From Haloactinomyces albus (GTDB taxonomy: Bacteria; Actinomycetota; Actinomycetes; Mycobacteriales; Pseudonocardiaceae), in NCBI RefSeq assembly GCF_031458135.1, contig NZ_JAVDXW010000001.1, forward strand, positions 3,100,001-3,164,000: a stretch of DNA of 64,000 nucleotides, written 5' to 3'. Both the position numbers and the translations under genes were made by a program. How positions within the stretch are numbered: the stretch's first letter is position 1; every line of letters begins with the position of its first letter. The notes under the pieces are model-generated. The model was given only the letters and a program-made list of their open reading frames with translations, ran no database searches and was not told the DNA's origin. This document shows, piece by piece, positions 827 through 60,864 of this stretch.

Positions 827-903
827 TTACAGGACAGTTCCCGTCGTTGAGGAGATTCCCCGACATGCTCCGCCCCCGTCTTCGGCGGGGACTGTCCATC
901 CAC

Positions 904-1173
904 ATGAGTGAATCGGAAAGGCGGGAAACGATGCGGGTTCGCTATCGCGAGGGGGAGGCATCCGAAGTTGAGCGAGTGGTGCACAGAACGGACGAACAGT
1001 TACCGGGGTGTCTGTTGCGCACCCGGTGCGGTATCCGACTCGAAGCCGGTCGGGTCGAACGCATCGACATCGGCGGTCCCTGCTGCGAAGGGTGTCAAAG
1101 CGCGTCGGTGTGGCGCTACCACGGCAGAAACGACGAGGTAACCAGTGACCGAGGGAGCCCCCTCCAGGTCTGA
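904..1173 (+). CDS. Small cysteine-containing hypothetical protein (89 aa)
   Basis: I do not recognise a named family. The ATG at 904 opens an 89-residue frame with Cys residues near the middle (PGCLLRTRCG) and a CCEGC cluster, suggesting a metal-binding fold like the tiny zinc-finger proteins that often sit beside XRE regulators in Pseudonocardiales. It is divergent from the XRE gene and overlaps the next possible frame (GTG at 1145). An upstream in-frame start at 847 exists, but 904 gives a more natural N-terminus. Function unknown. Confidence 0.5.
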   Translation: MSESERRETMRVRYREGEASEVERVVHRTDEQLPGCLLRTRCGIRLEAGRVERIDIGGPCCEGCQSASVWRYHGRNDEVTSDRGSPLQV

Positions 1174-1459
1174 TGGTCGACCAAGCGGGTATCGGACCCT
1201 GTTTCAGGGAGACCTCGCAGGCGATGTACCCACGCAACGACACATCCCCGTCCCCGCGTGCGCGGGCAGATGGGTGCCGGTCGACCACGAGGTTTTGTCG
1301 GCCGTGCTGCGAGGTTTGAACAATCTCCAACCACGAAGGAGACAGGAGCATTCGCAATATGGGCGAAACGGTGGAAGCAATACCGAGAGTGGAACCGCAC
1401 CAAGAAGACACGCAAGCGCGTGTATCTCTGAGCTTCGATCAATGGCAGCAGGTAGCTAA
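1145..1459 (+). CDS. Possible small hypothetical protein (104 aa), doubtful 3' end
   Basis: The GTG at 1145 overlaps the end of the preceding small gene. Residues about 35-60 (PVPACAGRWVPVDHEVLSAV) look like genuine protein. The frame then overlaps the better supported gene at 1359 by about 100 nt and becomes Arg/Ser-rich. The real gene probably ended near 1330 and lost its stop by a small mutation, or the tail is non-coding. It belongs to a run of degenerating small accessory genes. Unrecognised. Confidence 0.3.
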   Translation: MTEGAPSRSDGRPSGYRTLFQGDLAGDVPTQRHIPVPACAGRWVPVDHEVLSAVLRGLNNLQPRRRQEHSQYGRNGGSNTESGTAPRRHASACISELRSMAAGS

Positions 1460-56796: not shown

Positions 56797-57131
56797 GCCG
56801 GACTCCCGGGGCCGATGGTGTTCGTGCCCGACGACCGGTCGCCGACTGCAAGCCACTGCGTAGATCACATACGATCTGCGGGTGGGTCCTGCCGCGCCCG
56901 TCGTTTGACGGGCCTGTCGCTTGACGGGCCTGTCGGCAACACCCGATCCTTACTCGTATGGTACGCCGCGAACGCCCGAAATGAAGTCCTTCCGACCAGC
57001 ATTTTCATCGGCCATTGACGGTGCGGATGCTCGGCCGGTGGGGTTCCATACTCGGCATCGTCGACGGATGGGTACTGCGCGGAGCCGGGCGGCTCATTCG
57101 AGGTTCACCCGGGCTGCCTACGCTCATCGGC
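56797..57131. other. Divergent promoter region with 16-bp-period repeat
   Basis: TTGACGGGCCTGTCG occurs at 56905-56919 and again at 56921-56935. TACGCT (57119-57124) lies 7 nt before the start of the LOG gene, suggesting a leaderless transcript. No coding sequence is convincing in this 335-bp gap. Confidence 0.6.
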
Positions 57132-57971
57132 ATGACGATCGAAGGGCCCGGGGACTCCTTGTACAGCACCGAGGACGACGGTGGCGAGAACGGCGAGGAC
57201 ACCGGCAATACCGGAAACGGAAGTGACCATTCGCCCGAGAAACGGCGCGGTCCGGTGGTGCTGCGCCGGTCCAGGCTGCAGGAACCGACCACGACCGACC
57301 AGCGGCTCCTCGACTCGCGTGGACCCTCGGACTGGGTGCACACGGATCCATGGCGGGTGCTGCGGATCCAGGCGGAGTTCGTCGAGGGATTCGGTGCGCT
57401 GGCAGAGGTCCCGCGCGCGACCACGGTGTTCGGTTCCGCACGGACCTCGCGTGAGCATCCCGAGTACCAGGCCGGGCTCGAGCTGGGGGCGGCGCTGGCC
57501 GGGATCGGCTGTGCCGCGATCACCGGTGGTGGGCCGGGTACGATGGAAGCGGTCAATCGGGGTGCTTCCGAGGCCGGTGGCCTGTCGATCGGGCTGGGTA
57601 TCGAGTTGCCGTTCGAGCAGGGACTCAATCCCTGGGTCGATCTCGGCGTCAACTTCCGCTACTTCTTCACGCGCAAGACGATGTTCGTCAAGTACGCGCA
57701 GGCGTTCGTCTGCTTGCCGGGCGGCTTCGGCACGATGGACGAGCTGTTCGAGTCGCTCACTCTCGTGCAGACCAAGAAGGTCACGAAGTTCCCCGTGGTG
57801 ATGTTCGGCCGGTCCTACTGGCAAGGGCTGTACGACTGGATACGGGACACGATGTACGGGACGGGCAAGATCGGGGAGAAGGATCTGGCTCTGCTGCATC
57901 TGACCGACGATTTGGAGGACGCCGTGCGCGTCGTGGAGGAGGCATACCAGGCATGGGAGGACACGCACTGA
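57132..57971 (+). CDS. LOG-family protein (TIGR00730-type nucleotide phosphoribohydrolase) (279 aa)
   Basis: Rossmann-like hydrolase related to cytokinin-activating LOG enzymes, which cleave nucleoside 5'-monophosphates to base and ribose phosphate. Motifs ATTVFGSARTSREHPEYQAG, AAITGGGPGTMEAVNRGASE, VCLPGGFGTMDELFESLTLV (GGxGTxxE) and YFFTRKTMFVKYAQAFV. The acidic N-terminal 60 residues are extra. ATG at 57132. Overlaps a second LOG gene. Confidence 0.9.
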   Translation: MTIEGPGDSLYSTEDDGGENGEDTGNTGNGSDHSPEKRRGPVVLRRSRLQEPTTTDQRLLDSRGPSDWVHTDPWRVLRIQAEFVEGFGALAEVPRATTVFGSARTSREHPEYQAGLELGAALAGIGCAAITGGGPGTMEAVNRGASEAGGLSIGLGIELPFEQGLNPWVDLGVNFRYFFTRKTMFVKYAQAFVCLPGGFGTMDELFESLTLVQTKKVTKFPVVMFGRSYWQGLYDWIRDTMYGTGKIGEKDLALLHLTDDLEDAVRVVEEAYQAWEDTH

Positions 57972-58585
57972 GCAGCCCGGAAGCAGCGAGCCCGGAAGCA
58001 GCGAGCCCGGAAGCAGCGAGCTCTGAAGCGGCGAGCCCGGAGGCCGGATGGCAGGTTTCGGTCTGTGTCTACTGCGCGTCGCGTCCTGTCGACGAGCGTT
58101 ACGTGCACCTGGCAGGGGAGGTCGGTGCGTCCATCGCCAAGCGGGGTTGGACGCTGGTTTCCGGTGGTGGCCGGGTGTCGATGATGGGGGAGGTCGCCCG
58201 ATCGGCTCGCTCCGGTGGGGCGCGCACGGTCGGGGTCATACCGCGCGAACTCGTCGACCGGGAGGTGGCCGATACCGAGGCGGACGAACTGCTGGTCGTG
58301 GACACCATGCGCGAGCGCAAGGGGTTGATGGACGCCCATGCCACGGCTTTTCTGGCGCTGCCCGGCGGTATCGGAACTTGCGAGGAGCTGTTCGAGGTGT
58401 GGACCTCCCGCTACATCGGTATGCACGACAAGCCGGTGGTGATACTCGATCCGGACGGCCACTACCGGGGGCTGCTGGATTGGGTGCGCGAGCTGGTCGG
58501 CAGCGGTTTCGCTTCCCAGCGCAGTCTCGATGCGCTGACCGTGGTCACCGATGTCGAGGCCGCCCTCGATGCCTGCGCGGGGTGA
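57953..58585 (+). CDS. Second LOG-family protein with repeat-built N-terminus (210 aa)
   Basis: Same enzyme family as the preceding gene but a different branch: VCVYCASRPVDERYVHLAGE, LVSGGGRVSMMGEVARSARS (PGGGRxxxMG), FLALPGGIGTCEELFEVWTS. The ATG at 57953 overlaps the previous gene by 19 nt. Its first 30 residues are a run of PEAAS units encoded by a 15-bp tandem repeat, likely a disordered tail. Two LOG paralogues in tandem are typical of this actinobacterial neighbourhood. Confidence 0.88.
   Translation: MGGHALSSPEAASPEAASPEAASSEAASPEAGWQVSVCVYCASRPVDERYVHLAGEVGASIAKRGWTLVSGGGRVSMMGEVARSARSGGARTVGVIPRELVDREVADTEADELLVVDTMRERKGLMDAHATAFLALPGGIGTCEELFEVWTSRYIGMHDKPVVILDPDGHYRGLLDWVRELVGSGFASQRSLDALTVVTDVEAALDACAG
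57974..58048 (+). repeat. 15-bp tandem repeat inside LOG gene, five units
   Basis: AGCCCGGAAGCAGCG units at 57974-57988, 57989-58003, 58004-58018, a variant at 58019-58033 and a degenerate fifth at 58034-58048. The first three are identical, so copy number can change by slippage without breaking the frame. Confidence 0.92.
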
Positions 58586-58689
58586 GGCGGAGCTGCCCGG
58601 AGATACCGATTTCCTGGCTGAGGCATGAACTACCTCCTCGACGCCCATGTCGCTTCCGAGTTGCCTCGGCGTTCCCCGAACCGGTTCCT

Positions 58690-58720: not shown

Positions 58721-59092
58721 TCAGAACAGGCTGCTGATCAGGCTCGCGATCGAAGCCACCGAGCCTATCGTGCCCACCGTCTCGAGCATCGGTTCCAGCC
58801 GCGACCAGCGGTTTTTGATGTGCTCTGCGTTCGGTTGCTCGTCTTCCAGTAGCTCGGAGAGTTCTTCGGTCCGCCAGCGGGCTTCGCCACCGTCGAGGTT
58901 CGATTCCGGTTCGGCGTGCAGAGTTCGTACGAGCTGCCGCACGAGGTGCCGAAGTTGCTCCAGGTCCTCCTGGTGGGGGTTTCCGGAACCGAACACCTGC
59001 TCGGCATGTGCTTTCGAGCGGGAACCCCAGCTGTGTGCACCGACGAAACTTCCGCCACTGATGTTGATCCGTTGTTTCTCGTCGTCACTCAT
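58721..59092 (-). CDS. Small protein with N-terminal GGSFVGAHSWGS motif and hydrophobic C-terminus (123 aa)
   Basis: Start ATG 59092 overlaps the stop of the larger membrane protein (ATGA), so it is translationally coupled to it. Residues about 9-22 (INISGGSFVGAHSWGSRSK) match the C-terminal motif of that protein; the coding DNA is identical for 28 bp. The middle is helical and charged (EDLEQLRHLVRQLVRTLHAE, ELSELLEDEQPNAEHIKNRW). The last 20 residues (LETVGTIGSVASIASLISSL) are hydrophobic and Gly/Ser-rich, like a membrane-active helix. No known family. See findings. Confidence 0.8.
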   Translation of the reverse strand: MSDDEKQRINISGGSFVGAHSWGSRSKAHAEQVFGSGNPHQEDLEQLRHLVRQLVRTLHAEPESNLDGGEARWRTEELSELLEDEQPNAEHIKNRWSRLEPMLETVGTIGSVASIASLISSLF

Positions 59093-60864
59093 GTGTGCTC
59101 CCTCGATTCGGTGGCTGCCGGAGACGGAGCCGGTGCGGCGGCTACCGTGCCGGTACTGGCGGTCGAGTGGGAACCCCAGCTGTGTGCACCGACGAACTGC
59201 CCGCCCCGGATGGTCGTGGTGTTGTTGATGATGTGAGTGCTTTGCCGGTCCAGTTCCTCGGTGCTGTAGCCGCGTTCGGTCAGGTGGTTGCGGACCGCCG
59301 AGAACATCCGTTTCTCCAGTAGCCTGATGTGGCGCTGGCCGTCGAGATCCTGGAACTCGCCACCACACTGGTCGTCGGCGGCCATTTCCCGGATGCTCTC
59401 GATGTTGCGACGGGCGTAGGTGGGGTCGGTCGCTCCGAGCCGGGTGGGCGCGGCGCGCAGGCCGTGTGCCATCTGCCGGATGGTGCGCCAGCGTCGTGCG
59501 ATGCTGCCCAGCAGCTGCAGGAACTCGAGCGTGGCCAGACTTACCGCGTGGGACGCCGATGGGTCGACATGGCCACCCCTGCGGTACTCCGGAGCGATCG
59601 GGAACAGGCAGTAGGCGTTCCATTCGAGGTAGAGCGTGCGGTTGTCACAACCGATGTTGAGAAACGTGGAGACGACCAGGTCGGAGTCCCAGCTCGGCAC
59701 ACTGCTGCGCTGGAAATGCCGAACCCACTCCTGATCCTGGTCCATCAGGCTCAGCAAGGTCTCGTTCCGAAGCGCGATGGCGGGACGTCCGCTGTGGTCG
59801 GGCAGTAGCTCGTGCGCCAACGGGCTGTCCCGGTGCCTGCGGAGGCCCTGACTGGAGGCCACGACCAGGGGCTCCACCGTCAGGTCGCGGAGACGTCCGC
59901 CGGGGGCGAGCAGGTCGGCTTCGCGCATGTTGCACAGTTCGGTGCTGACCGCTTCGTACAGTTCCTGGGGACGCAGCGGTGTGGCTTCGTCGGAGTTCTG
60001 CTCCCGGCGGCGGAGGACCAGGGGAAGCGTCCAGGCGCTGACGCGGTGGCCATGAGCGACGAAGGCGTCCCAGCCACTGTGGACGAGGATGTTGCCGCTC
60101 GCCGACCGGTGAGCCACCTCGTCCAGCAGCGGCCCGTGGCGGGAAACGACCGCCGAAATCAGGCGGTTGATCAGGTTGGCGATCAGCGGGGATGGCTGCG
60201 GCGGTGGGGCAGGACTGCTATGCGTGGCCAGCAGCTGCTGCACGACACGCTTGTCCGCCAGCAACACCAGGTAGATCGCGGCCACGGCCGGCAGAAATAC
60301 CAGCGCGAGGAGGAACCAGGCCACGCCCGGCGAACCCCCGCTTCCGAGGGCGCTCGCGATCAGCATGGTGGAGAACAGGAAGAACAGTCCGCCACCGAGC
60401 AGCCAGACCAGGAACAGCACTGTGGCGGCCATGCCGACGAAGCTGACCCCGCTCTCCTCGTCGCGGGTGTCCGGGTCTTCTCGCCGCGGAGTTCGTCGCA
60501 GGCCGACGGTCAACGACCAGAACAGACACATCGCGCCCCAGAACAAGGTGAAGGCGACGCTGTAGGGCAGGACGACGAGTGCGGCCACGAGCATGAGGGC
60601 CAGCACGGTCGCGTCACGTGCCCGGCGCCGTCGCCGGGCTACGAGGGCCTGGGTCAGGATCACCCGGGCGTCCAATCCCAGTGCCGGAGGCAGTGCCTCC
60701 GAAGGGGCGGAGAAATAGGTGTCGATGACGCGGTCGGCGAAGTCGGGCTTGAGATGGACGGCAGCCGTGAGGTGCCGTGTGATTTCGTCGTGGGATTGTG
60801 GAGTGCCGGTTCCTCCGGGCGGACTACTCGGTGCCGCTACGGCCGTCGGTGGTGTCGGGTGCAT
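59089..60864 (-). CDS. Polytopic membrane protein with cytosolic domain and C-terminal GGQFVGAHSWGS motif (591 aa)
   Basis: About four hydrophobic segments lie in residues 85-215 (TVLALMLVAALVVLPYSVAF, FVGMAATVLFLVWLLGGGLF, VAWFLLALVFLPAVAAIYLV). A large soluble region follows (GNILVHSGWDAFVAHGHRVS, WVRHFQRSSVPSWDSDLVVS, NRTLYLEWNAYCLFPIAPEY). From memory this resembles a widespread uncharacterised actinobacterial membrane-protein family. The last 40 residues carry TIRGGQFVGAHSWGSHSTAS. GGAGATCC precedes the ATG at 60864. First gene of a two-gene operon. Confidence 0.82.
   Translation of the reverse strand: MHPTPPTAVAAPSSPPGGTGTPQSHDEITRHLTAAVHLKPDFADRVIDTYFSAPSEALPPALGLDARVILTQALVARRRRRARDATVLALMLVAALVVLPYSVAFTLFWGAMCLFWSLTVGLRRTPRREDPDTRDEESGVSFVGMAATVLFLVWLLGGGLFFLFSTMLIASALGSGGSPGVAWFLLALVFLPAVAAIYLVLLADKRVVQQLLATHSSPAPPPQPSPLIANLINRLISAVVSRHGPLLDEVAHRSASGNILVHSGWDAFVAHGHRVSAWTLPLVLRRREQNSDEATPLRPQELYEAVSTELCNMREADLLAPGGRLRDLTVEPLVVASSQGLRRHRDSPLAHELLPDHSGRPAIALRNETLLSLMDQDQEWVRHFQRSSVPSWDSDLVVSTFLNIGCDNRTLYLEWNAYCLFPIAPEYRRGGHVDPSASHAVSLATLEFLQLLGSIARRWRTIRQMAHGLRAAPTRLGATDPTYARRNIESIREMAADDQCGGEFQDLDGQRHIRLLEKRMFSAVRNHLTERGYSTEELDRQSTHIINNTTTIRGGQFVGAHSWGSHSTASTGTVAAAPAPSPAATESREHT

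Follow-up and report, generated by a model that had tools for sequence, protein, structure and literature searches.

Short signalling motifs associated with NOD-like receptors (NLRs) in bacteria reportedly stem from the study of Dyrka et al. 2020. The bacterial amyloid signalling sequences (BASS 1-10), which work with Bell effectors, are described in the available accounts as a segment of which one protein has a copy at its C-terminus and the product of an adjacent or overlapping gene another at its N-terminus, mainly in actinobacteria and cyanobacteria, with many sequence variants and in single or repeated copies (PMC7889193, PMC8086366, PMC12261475). In the NLR/Bell pairs covered by a 2021 review from authors of the work on bacterial motifs it is the effector that carries the C-terminal tag; the same review regards searches to date as biased to NLR/executor layouts and raises the question whether amyloid signalling in fungi and bacteria also runs through NLR-independent pathways (PMC7889193). 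Here we describe a pair of overlapping genes, A and B, on the minus strand of a 64,000-nt stretch of the Haloactinomyces albus genome (contig NZ_JAVDXW010000001.1, positions 3,100,001 to 3,164,000; this whole stretch is called the window). As in BASS, short motifs of A and B match across adjacent genes, C-terminal on one protein and N-terminal on the other. Compared by description, the A-B pair differs from BASS in lacking an NLR and in having as partners a multi-transmembrane protein and a small protein with exchangeable domains. We consider it fairly probable that the two proteins act together as a homotypic signalling module independent of NLRs, like BASS in its working and amyloid-type in nature. 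The A-B family is a concrete, testable candidate answer to the question of NLR independence, and it is of high interest because an explicitly open question becomes testable.

Gene A (591 amino acids) is followed by gene B (123 amino acids), and each protein carries one copy of a short segment, hereafter the tag:

59089-60864, minus strand: gene A, membrane protein and constant partner of the pair (open reading frame; matches in 96 of 297 family genomes)
58721-59092, minus strand: gene B, N-terminal tag plus helical body (open reading frame; DUF5955 below cut-off)
59089-59092, minus strand: ATGA overlap of the A stop and the B start (sequence; offset -3 also in 53 of 94 matched pairs)
59164-59211, minus strand: C-terminal tag of A, IRGGQFVGAHSWGSHS, residues 552-567 (sequence and pair comparison)
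59015-59068, minus strand: N-terminal tag of B, INISGGSFVGAHSWGSRS, residues 9-26 (sequence; residues 1-10 and 12-35 have a predicted local distance difference test score, pLDDT, of less than 50)

A GGxFVGAHSWGS segment is nearly identical at the C-terminal end of A and at the N-terminal start of B: TTTIRGGQFVGAHSWGSHS lies near the A C-terminus and MSDDEKQRINISGGSFVGAHSWGSRS is the start of B. The underlying DNA is identical over 28 bp (59020-59047 and 59169-59196, minus strand), which is the longest run common to both. The shared segment, its coordinates, the ATGA overlap and these identical runs had been reported in an initial annotation made from the letters alone, and all of them were confirmed. 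A degenerate pattern of the motif, with up to two mismatches, matches the window only at the two tags and never in 100 shuffles. With up to three mismatches it matches the whole 5.24-Mb genome at these two places only, and the reversed pattern matches once. The pattern thus gave no third instance of the tag in this genome, and a weak match at L003 looked like noise.

Is this likeness peculiar to one genome? The last 60 residues of A were compared with the first 60 residues of each same-strand downstream open reading frame (ORF) that starts between -30 and +400 of the A end, in 120 A proteins from fetched loci (91 family-level and 29 class-level), a subset of all A matches. An ORF was called matched when its best score was above 99% of the shuffled-tail scores (threshold 41). 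Before counting, we removed L004-L007, which by sequence are the same genomes as L009-L014 (four duplicates, taking 95 A proteins to 91), and one of the two frames of L095 and of L124. The recurrence at C- and N-termini of adjacent genes that the initial annotation had asked about is indeed seen: 94 of the 120 A genes have a matched downstream ORF (68 of 91 at family level, 26 of 29 at class level), and 53 of these 94 pairs have the start offset of -3, the overlap found in the window. Chance or composition as the source of the match is rejected because the shuffle null keeps composition. The tag varies widely between loci and yet is matched within the pair, as in L030 (GGSVGGSFSWGNNVVQ with GGSVGGNFSIGDNVTQ), L062 (GPVISSNIGTSGKARTG with GPVIGSNIGTSGRARTG) and L022 (GGTFSGVNVVGQGN with GGTFSGVTVVGQGN).

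Some loci needed individual inspection. At L112 (G547) the A tail extends past the motif and the wrong ORF was picked; the true B reaches a score of 86 when compared with the final 140 residues of A. At L103 (G459) the ORF picked is a motif-only one of 41 amino acids, and the helical B behind it scores 72 with a longer N-terminus. Locus L095 was considered as an A-B fusion and rejected, there being a frame change near the A end and an ordinary B. Tandem A genes are present at L047 (G085), neither with a matching ORF downstream.

The match is specific to the pair. From 71 of the 91 A proteins, those with a B found by a tag-including profile (A proteins lacking such a B were left out), we drew 40 non-redundant pairs with A bodies less than 70% identical. 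The mean score of A tail against B head was 70.0 for own partners, 29.7 for swapped partners and 24.1 after shuffling; own scores exceeded the 99% shuffle level in 39 of the 40 pairs, and the observed sum of own scores was reached by none of 5,000 permutations. Across the 40 rows and 40 columns of scores, the own partner came out on top in 28 and 30, respectively. It was the better one in 94.5% of comparisons at an A body identity of 40-50%. Although the tails of other A proteins are the orthologous segment, the own B head outscores 91% of them and beats all of them in 9 of the 40 cases.

The same holds between pairs that share a genome. The set for this comparison comprised 24 genomes (20 in which second loci were chosen and four already with two loci; G085 was left out), of which 19 have two matched pairs, the second being absent in G108, G157, G181, G439 and G537. 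In 19 of 19, both own scores (43-127) are higher than both cross scores (18-44); one of them, G547, rests on the wrongly picked ORF of L112, and without it the count is 18 of 18. The two A genes or pairs of one genome are mostly distant paralogs from different family branches. This is the look that insulated homotypic channels would be expected to have. At the level of sequence, the shared segment, its pair-specific co-diversification and, inside single genomes, a closer match to the own partner than to the crossed one are established, and the segment stands as a homotypic tag, as initially suggested, pair-specific and kept matched in many actinobacterial loci.

A trivial origin of the likeness would be a recent duplication or gene conversion without function. 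The window pair itself, with its 28 identical bases and the same codon in 12 of 17 matched residues where 7.5 are expected, would suit such an event. Over the 40 pairs, by contrast, the match holds at the protein level while synonymous codons stay near the expectation from codon usage: the same codon is used in 350 of 555 identical matched residues and 309 are expected, so that most pairs are not fresh DNA copies and the match is kept mainly at the protein level. The matching also recurs over family and class. A one-off duplication, which the initial annotation had named as the finding that would overturn its proposal, is rejected by pair specificity across homologous loci, by the codon counts and by insulation within genomes, and we regard this origin as barely credible. 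The modest codon excess leaves room for occasional conversion, for instance in the window pair, L018 and L082. A 65-base shared run at L019 proved to be an artefact of a B start chosen inside A.

Protein A is a member of an unnamed actinobacterial family. Matches occur in 96 of 297 genomes of the taxonomic family (22 of 46 genera), in 48 of 296 genomes of the class (18 of 115 genera) and in 10 of 198 genomes of a phylum-wide draw that overlaps the other samples, the window genome being counted each time. Its named relatives in GTDB contigs are four Actinopolyspora species, with 44-48% identity over the best segment. Window A has no Pfam or NCBIfam family at cut-off and no PADLOC match, and 40 A homologs have neither NCBIfam nor PADLOC matches. 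Against Pfam, no family is found in more than three of the 40, the matches being zinc ribbons, DUF7577 and single weak ones. As side observations, the zinc ribbon PF13240 occurs in three of the 40 (best E 9.4e-05) and DUF7577 in two (best 1e-06). Profiles of solved structures returned mostly transmembrane proteins for A (best E 0.0014), which were not taken as relatives. Two parts of A can be delimited:

60244-60606, minus strand: predicted transmembrane part of A, about residues 87-207 (inference from hydropathy and loop charges)
59215-60132, minus strand: conserved soluble part of A, predicted cytosolic, about residues 245-550 (homolog alignment)

Hydropathy gives five overlapping segments for the window protein and three peaks for the family average, and four hydrophobic segments are the commonest count among the homologs (21 of 40). 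The loop charges (K+R minus D+E) of +3.2, +2.3, -1.6 and +2.2 fit four helices. A therefore probably has four transmembrane helices and, judging from hydropathy and loop charges, both ends in the cytosol, so that the A tail and the B head would share one compartment. Residues invariant over the 40 homologs include F268, G272, R382, W392, P422, R492 and D508.

Protein B consists of the tag and a small helical body:

58727-58978, minus strand: helical body of B, residues 39-122, ending in a hydrophobic helix (AlphaFold2; hydropathy)

The AlphaFold2 model, built from five sequences (mean pLDDT 70.9), has four helices over residues 39-122 and a disordered N-terminus that includes the tag; the hydrophobic segment covers residues 105-123 and might, as the initial annotation proposed, perturb the membrane. 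The tag of B is thus outside the predicted folded part. The initial annotation had raised the possibility that the motif maps inside a globular domain in both families; B gives no sign of this, its tag being predicted as disordered, and for A the model, likewise from five sequences, is poor (pLDDT 42.7). Window B has no Pfam or NCBIfam family at cut-off; DUF5955 (PF19380) reaches 20.7 bits, below its gathering cut-off of 27.1; of 37 B homologs, 13 match this family with an E of at most 0.01 (best 4e-08). PADLOC, run without cut-offs, gives weak PDC-M14B matches for window B (best E 5e-5), and similar weak ones in up to 12 of the 37 B proteins; the search of the PDC-M14B family matched nothing, controls included. 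Profiles of solved structures returned coiled-coil and helical proteins for B (best E 0.0012), which were not taken as relatives.

What lies behind the B tag is exchangeable. We surveyed 112 matched B proteins (94 from the 120 A genes and 18 from 20 further loci). Similarity sets eight of them apart as PNP-like (four), EAD1-like (two) or cyclase-like (two). Among the other 104, 100 are 80-200 amino acids long, three are short and one (L112) is the wrong ORF; 99 of these 100 bodies link to the helical body of window B by an iterative profile at a lenient E of 0.01. Pfam confirmed EAD1 (PF19955, E 1e-13 to 8e-15) in the B proteins of L109, L116 and L119, the tag match of L119 being below threshold, and put PNP_UDP_1 (PF01048, E 1e-16 to 2e-17) above cut-off in those of L187, L188 and L189, with one more by similarity. 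The B proteins of L026 and L037 we take to be cyclase-like from a reading of the sequence; Pfam and PDB sequence searches returned nothing for that of L026. At L090 the tag is missing from both A and its cyclase-like neighbour. That the domain behind the B tag is swapped is established by these sequences, the variants being a helical bundle, EAD1, a PNP_UDP phosphorylase and a putative cyclase-like domain. The claim that no known defence domain is present was right for the window pair and fails for its relatives, where B may carry EAD1 or PNP_UDP_1.

Several B loci have unusual layouts. A single ORF at L176 joins A, one tag and a B body, a lone case in which an assembly error is possible. In L123 and L124, and by eye in L117 and L127, two tandem tag copies precede the helical body. 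Such tandem copies recall the two repeats of HET-s. Short ORFs consisting of hardly more than the tag were seen at L020 (54 amino acids, its B being at 895-1281, minus strand), L103 (41 amino acids, from 3186) and L193 (66 amino acids, 2135-2332), those of L020 and L103 lying between A and a helical B. They are possible decoys or regulators of a stack.

How could such a pair work? In about 100 related pairs the tags are alike within the pair and vary from one pair to the next, which makes it probable that the tag serves as a private plug of prion type by which one protein switches on the other. A would be the hub, constant and anchored in the membrane, with the short Gly-rich segment at the end of a tail that is probably flexible and located in the cytosol. 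B would carry a copy of the segment at its N-terminus, ahead of an output domain that can be exchanged and that in most pairs, the window pair included, is a small helical bundle. On sensing a trigger, A would let its tails cluster; like segments would then stack in register in a cross-beta manner, most likely as a beta-arch, amyloid-type seed, and the stacked tails would template the segments of B, which would polymerise and turn its output domain on, presumably for defence or regulated cell death. The segment would also be a lock, a variant of its own for each pair keeping the pairs of one cell apart. In-register beta-arch stacking and templating are inferred from known amyloid signalling motifs, as these are presented in PMC7889193, PMC8086366, PMC9815663 and PMC12261475.

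The sequence results all concern matching and not polymerisation, and would equally be produced by homotypic docking without amyloid, in which a defined beta-strand addition or a small oligomer assembles a stable complex and no templated switching takes place. This is rather improbable in our view, as identity between partners, and not complementarity, is a known feature of amyloid motifs, and as the tags are short, Gly-rich, terminal, set beside modular domains and in some B proteins (L123, L124) present in two copies.

The direction of signalling is a separate matter. Given the connector, we lean towards A acting on B: A as constant hub and B as output are favoured by the exchangeable EAD1 and PNP outputs. 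The same connector might be used with the opposite polarity, B being the trigger or adaptor and A the membrane executor. B, whether helical, linked to EAD1 or of a nucleotide-signalling kind, would then be activated first and template the A tails, and A would permeabilise or remodel the membrane, as is thought for HET-S or Bell. The C-terminal tag on the membrane protein favours this reversal, as in HET-S and Bell, and a C-terminal tag on the membrane-acting protein is the effector layout presented in PMC7889193; EADs, moreover, are described as coupling adaptors in PMC7159879. Yet the large conserved soluble domain of A would be superfluous for a simple pore former, and the PNP_UDP_1 partners look like outputs. 

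Tag matches in trans also bear on polarity. Some A clades have no adjacent B, and their tags share likeness with segments upstream of STAND, NB-ARC or NACHT domains in the same genomes, which speaks for the reversed polarity. Seven such genomes, searched with the tag of one clade, gave nine weak matches outside A in six of the seven, with two hits in two of the seven for a reversed query, a control that applies to this seven-genome query only. Individually the nine are insignificant (E 0.17 to 3.5), which counts against building on them. In six cases a STAND-type P-loop follows a short way behind the match (L141, L142, L144, L146, L147 and L148, start codons provisional), and five of these six proteins pass the Pfam cut-off for NB-ARC or NACHT, L142 being below it. 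The three that remain are the C-terminus of a small protein of helical appearance (L149), an unassigned match (L143) and an apparent chance hit (L145). Searching five genomes of another genus gave 16 tag matches outside A (E 0.006 to 1.3). They include C-terminal tags on small helical-looking proteins, one per genome (L156-L160), which by appearance resemble Bell proteins; four mini-proteins with two transmembrane segments (L161, L163-L165), all with C-terminal tags; the C-terminus of a longer protein (L162); tags before an NB-ARC domain (L166), in L168, which has no Pfam match, and in L170; and L167, L169 and L171. These matches only suggest that the A tags belong to the same motif world as NLR-type motifs. 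Overall, we see the reversed polarity as a possible but clearly less expected arrangement, and continue to prefer A as hub and B as output.

The surroundings of the cassette raise one more explanation: A and B could be an ordinary toxin-antitoxin or chaperone pair that shares the segment only incidentally. A genome of the same genus (G035) has syntenic flanks, with 82-86% DNA identity, and no A-B cassette; its slot (L195, 1743-2419) is taken by a Phd/YefM antitoxin (PF02604, E 7.5e-11) and a PIN protein (PF01850, E 1e-14), each scoring above cut-off. The window still has, at 58587-58678, 92 bases left over from the beginning of this PIN gene, at 78% identity. That a Phd/YefM-PIN pair fills the slot, together with the overlapping two-gene operon and the patchy distribution, would suit a toxin-antitoxin system. 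On the other hand, toxin and antitoxin interfaces are complementary, not near-identical, and the tag match is kept while the output domains change; we hold this explanation to be very improbable. Module exchange at one slot fits conflict or defence cargo without proving it. By inspection, the genes around the cassette in the window's final 10 kb look like housekeeping genes, and the two ORFs beside the cassette (57015-57971 and 57953-58585) are presumably both of the LOG/TIGR00730 type.

Several observations weigh against an amyloid-type module running from A to B. No match above threshold was found for 26 of the 120 A genes, although six of these come near it with scores of 32-40. Among the 40 pairs, L057 does not fit its partner (score 32, rank 23), and close relatives discriminate less, the own partner being better in 71% of 24 comparisons at 50-60% identity and in 69% of 16 at 60-70%. 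In the recurrence and insulation tests each own score was the highest among a small number of candidate ORFs, a bias towards own and against cross scores. The C-terminal tag on the effector in published NLR/Bell pairs would, by analogy, make A the executor. The sensor role of A is a guess because its model is poor. The fold search with the helical body of B found no relative at E 0.001. Finally, the amyloid-type reading is drawn from sequence.

With these points in mind, the chances appear evenly balanced that actinobacteria possess a widespread NLR-free architecture of prion type, with a constant membrane hub, interchangeable effectors, a freely diversifying amyloid 'address' and several mutually insulated prion channels per cell. 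Matched and unmatched tags within single genomes form a natural library from which the determinants of seeding specificity could be read out. The coupling principle is already known from NLR-associated bacterial motifs. The NLR-free A-B architecture seems new, our searches of the openly licensed PMC literature having turned up no description of it.

Relative to BASS, the N-terminal tag sits on B and not on an NTPase receptor. In agreement with the initial annotation, which saw no NLR in the pair, neither window protein has an NTPase domain; none is among the Pfam matches of the 40 A homologs, and one stray AAA_25 match (E 0.0087) occurs among 37 B proteins. Compared by description with Bell, A is a larger, multi-transmembrane protein with a C-terminal tag. 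RHIM, HET-S, NACHT_sigma and Ses_B were matched by none of the 40 A and 37 B proteins at E 0.01, these short profiles being insensitive.

Systems built on effector-associated domains (EADs) are close in another respect. As given in PMC7159879, System 4 of Kaur et al. 2020 is a two-gene membrane system in which EACC1, with one transmembrane helix, is joined by a caspase or cyclase protein. The A-B family resembles this system and those of EADs in general by having a constant component with variable outputs, homotypic coupling and an actinobacterial setting, and three B relatives carry EAD1 itself. It differs in that A probably has four transmembrane helices and a soluble part of about 300 residues, and in that its coupler is a short tag and not a folded EAD. 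EACC1 is absent from the Pfam matches of the 40 A homologs and caspase from those of the 37 B proteins; according to Pfam, an EAD is absent from the window pair and present in the B proteins of L109, L116 and L119.

The phosphorylase partners offer the remaining parallels. Fungal PNP_UDP effectors carry the PUASM amyloid motif, according to PMC9815663, and the B proteins of L187, L188 and L189 are alike in coupling a PNP_UDP-type phosphorylase through a shared motif, which is amyloid-like in fungi. The fungal motif, as presented there, is C-terminal on the effector and its partner is an NLR, whereas here the motif is N-terminal and the partner is A. Detocs, described in PMC11249213 as a three-gene system with PNP effectors, is alike in its PNP-family output domain. 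The presence of EAD1 and PNP_UDP_1 after such tags would link short motifs of amyloid type with the wider bacterial conflict network.

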